Origin: Burkholderiaceae bacterium
GTDB lineage: Bacteria; Pseudomonadota; Gammaproteobacteria; Burkholderiales; Burkholderiaceae_E
Reading direction: 5' to 3'
Length of the DNA: 64,000 nucleotides
Assembly (NCBI GenBank): GCA_023954135.1
Contig: JAMLIN010000003.1
Span: forward strand, 124,001-188,000
This document shows positions 21,016 through 22,830 of this stretch, one piece after another. The position numbers and the translations under genes were made by a program. The notes below the pieces were generated by a model. That model had not been told where the DNA came from and ran no database searches. It saw nothing but the letters and a program-made list of their open reading frames with translations. Positions within the stretch are counted from its first letter, which is position 1. Each line of letters opens with the position of its first letter.

Positions 21016-22830
21016 ATGGATTCGATTCCCTCGCAGACCCGCTCCGACGGCATCGCCGTCGTCACGATCGACTTGCGCGCGCACGATCCGGCCAGCGCGC
21101 TGGCCGGGCTTCGAGCCGGAATCCGTGGTGCCGTCGAAGGCATTACGGCTTCTGGCTCGGCGACGACCGGGGTCGTGCTCCGGATCGCAGCCAGCCACGA
21201 GGTGTCGAGCATCGATCCGGCGGCGATTCTGGCGAACCAGCCCGCGGACCAGGTGCTCTCGCAAGCGAGCGAGCTGACCGCCCTGCTCGCCCGGCTCGAG
21301 GATTCGTCCATCCGGAGCGTTGCCATCATCGAGGGCGAAGCCGTCGGCGCGCCCTTCGAAGCCGCCCTCGCCTGCAATCATCGGATCATGGTCCGCTCGC
21401 CCGGCACGCGTGCCGGATTGCCGGCGCTCTCTCTCGGGCTGCTGCCCGCCGCGGGCGGCATCGGCCGACTGCTCAGGCACATGCCCCTGCGCGAGGCGAT
21501 GGAGCTTCTCGCACGGGCCGAGACGGTCGACTGCGCGAGGGCCCTCGAGCTCGGCCTGGTCGATGAGGTCGTCGATACAGGGGAGGCGGCCGAGGTCGCG
21601 GCGCTGGCCTGGCTCACCTCCACGGCGCAGCGTATCGAAGCAGGCCGGAAATCGGCCGACCCGGGCGCCGATCAGGCCGCCGTGCAGGCAGCGACATCTT
21701 TCGCGATGGCGGCCCTGCCCGGCCGCCGCCGCGCGGCGATCACCCTGGCGGCGATAGCCTCGGCCTGGGCAACCCAGGATCGTGCCGCCGCTGCCGCAAC
21801 GGAGTTGCGACGCTCCGTCGAGCTCGCCACCCACGACGACACCCGCGCGTGGCTGTCGACGCACTGGCGGCCGGACCATCCGGCCAGGCGGGAGCCCTCG
21901 CAGTCCCCAGGGCACGGCACTCACGAGGACGACCACCATTGCCCCGATCGAGCAATCGCAAGGATCCGCGCCGCCGGATTGCTCGAGGCTATGGCGTTGG
22001 TCGGCGACGGCGTGCCGGCGGCGCGAGTCGAGCGACTGGCAGCCTCGGCGGGCATGCAACGTGGCCCGCTGCTGGTTCTCGACGAGATCTCGCTGACGCC
22101 CATCGATGCCGCGCATCACCAGTCCGAAGGGCACGACCATGGGCACGGACATGACCATGGCGAGACCCACGAGCACGAGCACGAACATGGGCATGGGCAT
22201 GGGCATGGGCATGGGCATGGGCATGGGCATGGGCATGGGCATGGGCATCACCATCATCATGCGAAGACGCACGAGCATGACCATGGCGATCACGGGCACG
22301 CCAACGGACACGAGCACGGTCACCACGACCATCACCATCCGCACGGCCATGATCACGAGCACTGCCATGGCCACCGCCACGAGCACGACGCTTCCGCATG
22401 GCCGGCGGTGCCGCCGGCGGCGGTCTACGTTCTCGAGAAGATGGCCCATGGATTCGGCCGGACCGGGCGCGCGGCCGGAGGCGGCTTCTACGACCATCCC
22501 GCCGGCTCGGCACCCTCGCTCTGGCCCGGTCTGGAGCAGTTCGAACGGCCCGCGGTCGGACTGACCGACGACGATTGCGTCGATCGGATACTCTTTGCCC
22601 AGGTGATCGAAGCCCTGTCCGCCCTGGCCGATGGCCTGGTCGAGGATCCTGCGGAACTCGACCGGAGCGCCCGGGCCGCCGGGTTTCCCGGGGCCGGCGG
22701 GGTCACCGGCTTCGTCGAAGCGCGGGGGCGGGCTTCCTTCACCACACGCTGCGCCGAACTCGCGTCGCGATTCGGCGAACGATTCACGATGTCGCCCGAC
22801 GCGCTGAAGCGGCTGCCGGGCAACACCTGA
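21016..22830 (+). CDS. FadJ-like crotonase/3HCDH-C protein lacking the NAD-binding domain, with a giant His-rich insert
   Basis: 604 residues from ATG 21016. Residues ~1-190 are a diverged crotonase domain (GLPALSLGLLPAAGG), followed by the helical linker of FadB/FadJ (~255-295). The Rossmann 3-hydroxyacyl-CoA dehydrogenase domain that should come next is entirely absent; the chain continues directly with the 3HCDH C-terminal domain (RGPLLVLDEISLTP). That domain is interrupted at ~365-458 by about 90 residues with some 45 histidines, then resumes as VYVLEKMAHGFGRTG and GGGFYDHP, and ends with the second 3HCDH-C copy. In the crotonase part the first catalytic Glu equivalent is kept (GAPFEAAL) but the second is Ala (LPALSLG instead of LPExxLG). 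It is therefore probably not a beta-oxidation enzyme; metal binding through the His-rich insert is likely. The Nudix-MBL gene follows after 22 bases and is probably cotranscribed. Confidence 0.82.
   Translation: MDSIPSQTRSDGIAVVTIDLRAHDPASALAGLRAGIRGAVEGITASGSATTGVVLRIAASHEVSSIDPAAILANQPADQVLSQASELTALLARLEDSSIRSVAIIEGEAVGAPFEAALACNHRIMVRSPGTRAGLPALSLGLLPAAGGIGRLLRHMPLREAMELLARAETVDCARALELGLVDEVVDTGEAAEVAALAWLTSTAQRIEAGRKSADPGADQAAVQAATSFAMAALPGRRRAAITLAAIASAWATQDRAAAAATELRRSVELATHDDTRAWLSTHWRPDHPARREPSQSPGHGTHEDDHHCPDRAIARIRAAGLLEAMALVGDGVPAARVERLAASAGMQRGPLLVLDEISLTPIDAAHHQSEGHDHGHGHDHGETHEHEHEHGHGHGHGHGHGHGHGHGHGHHHHHAKTHEHDHGDHGHANGHEHGHHDHHHPHGHDHEHCHGHRHEHDASAWPAVPPAAVYVLEKMAHGFGRTGRAAGGGFYDHPAGSAPSLWPGLEQFERPAVGLTDDDCVDRILFAQVIEALSALADGLVEDPAELDRSARAAGFPGAGGVTGFVEARGRASFTTRCAELASRFGERFTMSPDALKRLPGNT
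22186..22248 (+). repeat. Hexanucleotide microsatellite (CATGGG)10 coding for (His-Gly)10
   Basis: Ten perfect catggg units followed by cat, inside the His-rich insert of the FadJ-like gene. The unit is two codons long, so gain or loss of units changes the His-Gly number without a frameshift. Confidence 0.92.

Follow-up and report, generated by a model that had tools for sequence, protein, structure and literature searches.

Probable reduction of a histidine-tract-bearing β-oxidation enzyme to a non-enzymatic, metal-binding protein

In the α subunit of the Mycobacterium tuberculosis trifunctional enzyme (FadB; PDB 4b3h, 7o1g and others), a crotonase domain, a linker, and the two halves of a C-terminal domain follow one another in an order shared by the protein described here, whose best match in both sequence and structure it is. 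Two further systems are related by composition or by enzyme family. The Helicobacter pylori GroES homologue HspA bears a His/Cys-rich extension that sequesters nickel (PMC4671568), and Lpg1596 of Legionella pneumophila, a homolog of enoyl-CoA hydratase, binds Ni-NTA (PMC12211046). A search of the open-access literature returned no paper on a His-rich FadB or FadJ.

Domain Organization of the Window Gene

The window, the whole 64,000-nucleotide stretch of DNA that was analyzed, contains one clean open frame whose parts are as follows.

21016–22830, plus strand: eroded His-rich relative of the trifunctional enzyme α subunit, 604 residues (open reading frame, Pfam, structure match, profiles)
21016–21621, plus strand: crotonase (enoyl-CoA hydratase) domain, residues ~1–202 (ECH profile, AlphaFold2)
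21358–21360, plus strand: Glu115, first hydratase catalytic Glu, retained (alignment)
21424–21426, plus strand: Ala137, at the position of the second hydratase catalytic Glu, Glu141 of M. tuberculosis FadB (alignment)
21622–21930, plus strand: linker helices from crotonase to C-terminal domain, ~103 residues (profile, AlphaFold2)
21931–22125, plus strand: CTD1, first half of the 3HCDH C-terminal domain, residues ~306–370 (Pfam 3HCDH, profile, AlphaFold2)
22126–22407, plus strand: His-rich tract, predicted disordered (composition count, pLDDT)
22186–22248, plus strand: perfect (CATGGG)×10.5 hexamer repeat encoding (His-Gly)n (repeat search)
22408–22791, plus strand: CTD2, second half of the C-terminal domain, residues ~465–592 (structure-database match, profile, alignment)

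The crotonase domain scores 108 bits against the ECH profile, and in the AlphaFold2 model both it (pLDDT mostly 84–96) and the C-terminal domain are predicted confidently. An eroded relative of 292 residues is likewise modeled, with confidence, as this C-terminal domain, and for both models the best structural match is the M. tuberculosis α subunit. Pfam recovers ECH_1 at residues 67–207 (1.6e-14) and 3HCDH at residues 315–363 (5.6e-7), but neither the Pfam search nor the domain profile finds 3HCDH_N, the NAD-binding domain of ~180 residues expected right after the linker, which is itself of nearly normal length (~103 residues versus 107 in intact relatives). Among solved structures, the top phmmer match is M. 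tuberculosis FadB, which aligns collinearly with window residues 10–203, 316–361, and 466–596 while its own residues ~225–528, including the NAD domain, are skipped. CTD2 bears the core EKMAHG..R.GRA.GGGFYD....LW.GL..F.

These results bear out much of the first-pass annotation, which had read crotonase, linker, and both 3HCDH C-terminal parts in order, with the whole NAD-binding domain gone. Its assignment of the protein to FadJ holds only in part, for the protein is a relative of the β-oxidation multienzymes but is closer to the M. tuberculosis-like trifunctional α subunit than to the Escherichia coli FadJ type. By descent, as its homologous and correctly ordered crotonase and C-terminal domains show, the gene is a FadB/FadJ trifunctional α subunit; lacking the NAD domain and the second catalytic Glu, its product would not be expected to act as a FadB/FadJ trifunctional enzyme. 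Little weight attaches to the curated FadJ/FadB cut-off of 869 bits, below which fall not only the window protein (at best 99.9) but also intact relatives (505).

An antisense open frame of 629 residues (20980–22869, minus strand) spans the whole gene and is probably a by-product of high G+C. No structured RNA was matched by Rfam in the window, and the leader RNA folds just marginally more stably than shuffled controls (z −1.46). A perfect 10-bp inverted repeat with a 15-bp loop, TATCAGTGGC / GCCACTGATA, lies at 20906–20940, ~75 bp upstream of the start codon; it occurs once in the window, where none would be expected by chance, and could be a regulator site or a hairpin.

Loss of Catalytic Residues

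Eight positions were compared across the family: the two hydratase Glu residues, three Gly residues of the NAD fingerprint, and the Ser, His, and Glu of the dehydrogenase. All eight are kept in the full-length tract-bearing members, and the full set is found in no eroded member. The damage to the hydratase site of the window protein was missed in the earlier annotation. Besides Ala137, the active-site motif reads GAP instead of GGG, and the FFAGGD motif is gone. Alanine is also the residue engineered at this position in the α-E141A mutants of M. tuberculosis FadB, and the solved mutant 7o1g (α-E141A-H462A) outscores the wild type against the window protein because it has the same letter there. 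With the NAD domain absent and the second catalytic Glu replaced, neither hydratase nor dehydrogenase activity would be expected from this sequence. Two other FadB/FadJ-type proteins are encoded in the same genome, with all eight residues intact.

A Disordered His-rich Tract within the C-terminal Domain

The insert that separates the halves of the C-terminal domain spans residues ~371–464 and contains 43 His in 94 residues, in good agreement with the ~90 residues and ~45 His noted at first. Its His residues are specified by 20 CAC and 23 CAT codons and form 31 H-x-H steps, and it is disordered in the AlphaFold2 model (pLDDT about 40). The hexamer repeat within it is probably a recent expansion; such a repeat is liable to slip by two residues at a time, and its length may vary between strains. 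In a codon-pattern search, eight alternating His codons were found nowhere else in the 4.36-Mb genome, so that the tract does not reflect a genome-wide habit, and genome-wide His repeats are thereby ruled out. A protein search with His repeats alone was uninformative, returning no match even at the window locus itself.

The Locus and Its Neighbors

The window gene is shown by the conservation of its surroundings to be a syntenic ortholog of the full-length trifunctional-type β-oxidation α subunit. The conserved neighbors in the window are listed here.

17779–20787, plus strand: upstream neighbor, GGDEF-EAL protein (family synteny)
22853–24502, plus strand: downstream neighbor, NUDIX plus metallo-β-lactamase fold (Pfam, family synteny)
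26502–28640, minus strand: convergent neighbor anchoring the locus across the family (family synteny), which we take from its sequence to be polynucleotide phosphorylase

The order GGDEF-EAL gene, His-tract gene, NUDIX-metallo-β-lactamase gene, and convergent phosphorylase gene is common to full-length and eroded forms; in most of genus g2 and in genus g11, the phosphorylase gene is the only one of the conserved neighbors to be kept. The downstream gene, whose product is a NUDIX domain fused to a metallo-β-lactamase-fold domain with a winged helix, starts 22 bp past the stop codon of the His-tract gene, and the two likely form one operon. Its product is the sole conserved neighbor that would itself use metal, and the conserved neighbors include no gene for metal transport, regulation, or maturation. 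Upstream of the GGDEF-EAL gene, an N-acyl amino acid synthase-like protein (FeeM) is encoded at 16144–17010, and in much of the family both genes adjoin the locus.

Distribution across the Family and Beyond

A query composed of the tract and C-terminal domain matches 62 of 74 genomes belonging to the family of the window genome and is found in 13 of 16 genera; in 4 of the 62, the match comprises the C-terminal part only or is cut by a contig end. As the tract recurs family-wide at the same locus, the artefact of assembly or oddity of one strain against which the first-pass annotation had cautioned is ruled out. Five domain profiles, scored on wider regions around the family matches and outgroups, distinguish several states among the complete proteins. 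Twenty-three are full-length, with the tract and every checked catalytic residue, and full-length proteins without a tract occur in three genomes, all of one genus (G015, G032, and G061), where the tract must be dispensable; a sister genome, G024, has a short one. The remaining 28 are eroded to different degrees. Only the NAD domain is lost in the window and in G004, crotonase is lost and the NAD domain decayed in G006, G019, and G062, and nearly all but the C-terminal domain is lost in others (e.g. G005 and G075). All 28 keep a His tract, which in all but two lies in the linker between the C-terminal halves, with 24–81 His. Thus, on the question raised in the first-pass annotation, the insert and the deletion do co-occur in relatives, but the insert is also present in the 23 intact enzymes.

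The tracts differ widely in length and sequence. His alternates in them with Gly, Asp, Glu, or Ala, and many are rich in Asp and Glu and several contain Cys. Where the tract lies in the loop, its His content stays at 23–52% family-wide while partner residues and CAC/CAT codons turn over. In two genomes of one genus (G010 and G021), the tract is instead at the N terminus, with 22–24 His in the densest 40 residues. The relatives thus conserve a long, His-rich, predicted disordered segment, as would be expected of a His-rich metal store or metallochaperone.

Outside the family, every match among 399 genomes of the order starts past the query's tract portion; in the phylum (398 genomes), the C-terminal-domain matches likewise start past it, and two extra matches cover the His part alone. 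In these roughly 400 order and 400 phylum genomes, the tract in a trifunctional-type protein is therefore seen only inside the family. The only match in the named genomes (L028) proved to be a protein resembling heavy-metal P-type ATPases, and its His-rich stretch is unrelated. G029 apparently carries the His-tract gene twice, on separate contigs (L032 and L126), and may be a mixed assembly.

Insertion before Repeated Domain Loss

When mapped onto a tree built from the phosphorylase and hydrolase proteins, the full-length and eroded states require at least six changes, although this is a quick, midpoint-rooted tree with several long branches that limit the exact number of losses. Constraining the eroded rows to form a single clade is rejected (p-AU 7e-51), and with it a single origin of erosion; reading well-supported branches and assuming that catalysis is never regained, at least five losses are counted, in genus g11, in part of g7, in part of g3, in g2 together with g15, and in the window together with G004, perhaps with G005. 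A clade of the window and G004 is compatible with the data (p-AU 0.56), so that these two may share one NAD-domain deletion.

Since intact enzymes of the same locus have the tract, the insert predates domain loss, and the insert and deletion, the two features of the earlier description, are separate events; the domains were lost later and several times. The distribution of the tract suggests that it was gained before the family radiated or early in that radiation.

The C-terminal domain of the eroded relatives is under purifying selection, weaker than in the enzyme. Pairwise dN/dS of its halves is about 0.05–0.25 between near relatives and up to 0.54 between distant pairs, compared with 0–0.17 in full-length forms, and is below 0.55 in every comparison; these values cover eroded relatives, as none of the genomes compared is closely related to the window lineage. 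The higher values in the eroded forms indicate relaxed constraint. All aligned eroded forms share an invariant core, EKM.HG..R.G...G.GFY followed by W.GL..F. The clean frames of relatives with the same fate, together with this selection, agree with the initial view of the open frame as maintained and not decayed.

A Proposed Origin and Function

On balance, the window protein is probably a tract-bearing β-oxidation enzyme reduced to a non-enzymatic, probably metal-binding protein in which the tract and the C-terminal scaffold have survived. A disordered His-rich tract would have been gained in the loop between the C-terminal halves of a trifunctional-type enzyme, where it would most likely chelate a transition metal (Zn, Ni, Co, or Cu) and serve for buffering or storage, carried by the compact C-terminal domain. 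Many lineages would have kept both jobs. In several others, FadB/FadJ-type enzymes encoded elsewhere may have made catalysis dispensable, with selection keeping the tract and C-terminal domain alone; in the window genome, clean deletion of the NAD domain and loss of the hydratase Glu would have left a non-enzymatic, probably metal-binding product. The analogy of H. pylori HspA and Hpn makes metal buffering or storage the favored function; metal binding, the choice of metal, the buffering role, and the oligomeric state are all features that we infer. That the enzyme doubled as a metal store, and that shedding of its enzyme half in at least five lineages produced a new non-enzymatic family of His-rich metal-binding proteins, is put forward more tentatively, and the lack of any linked metal gene among the conserved neighbors counts against the metal-store reading.

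The tract could instead have expanded neutrally, driven by repeats, in a loop that tolerates it, with the eroded genes on their way to loss, as the perfect hexamer repeat, the variability of the tracts, the raised dN/dS of eroded forms, and the loss of the tract in one genus might suggest. This is unlikely. The tract is missing from none of the complete eroded forms, across at least five losses, and its steady His content amid codon and residue turnover, its survival of each catalytic loss, and its relocation in one genus indicate selection in favor of a His-rich segment with this domain as carrier; the dN/dS ceiling and the absence of a second such tract from the window genome also speak against neutral expansion.

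It is more doubtful still that the His protein serves specifically as zinc donor to, or partner of, the downstream NUDIX-metallo-β-lactamase protein. Metallo-β-lactamase-fold hydrolases usually need metal, and the two genes adjoin, on the same strand in most genomes and often with overlapping start and stop codons, but ten of the genomes searched, from genera g2 and g11, have an eroded His protein without the partner gene, and genus g16 has the partner without the tract. No more probable is binding of polyphosphate or another anion, or pH- or metal-dependent assembly, in place of metal buffering. Roles of this kind have been ascribed to His-rich stretches, and a predicted disordered segment of His alternating with Gly, Asp, Glu, or Ala on a folded domain would suit them, yet the many Asp/Glu-rich tracts disfavor an anion and favor metal, and several tracts contain Cys. 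Finally, that the window protein is still a hydratase or isomerase of altered chemistry is very improbable, for although its crotonase fold is retained and confidently predicted and G004, of the same domain make-up, has both catalytic Glu residues, the window site has lost its second Glu, GGG, and FFAGGD, and other lineages have lost the crotonase domain entirely.

Living relatives show side by side many stages in the stripping of a central metabolic enzyme to a disordered segment and its carrier domain. As catalysis was lost in parallel on several occasions, the family offers a natural experiment on the function of the tract. Homology-based annotation would probably label the eroded proteins dehydrogenases or hydratases, which is probably wrong for them.

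Comparison with Known Systems

M. tuberculosis FadB differs from the window protein in having the NAD domain and both catalytic Glu residues, and a short linker at the site of the tract. Full-length enzymes of the His-tract family (e.g. L036, L042, and L049) are syntenic orthologs with the same insertion point but, unlike the window protein, have all catalytic domains and checked residues intact. The G004 protein (L029) is closest in organization, with crotonase, linker, no NAD domain, and a C-terminal domain with a His tract; its hydratase Glu residues are both intact, and its crotonase and linker are 61% identical to those of a full-length reference (L054). We know of no earlier case of such a tract in an internal position, nor of an enzyme being shed repeatedly around one. 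Lpg1596 likewise comes from a β-oxidation enzyme family and binds nickel resin (PMC12211046); having 16 His in 672 residues and no His stretch, it provides no precedent for the tract. HspA and Hpn, in contrast, resemble the window protein in the addition of a His-rich, metal-sequestering segment to a housekeeping protein (PMC4671568), but their fold is unrelated, their tract is C-terminal rather than inside a domain, and HspA has retained the domain of its parent protein. For these two, binding of metal has been demonstrated, and it is what we infer for the window protein, whose His-rich addition to a housekeeping protein is of a known kind.
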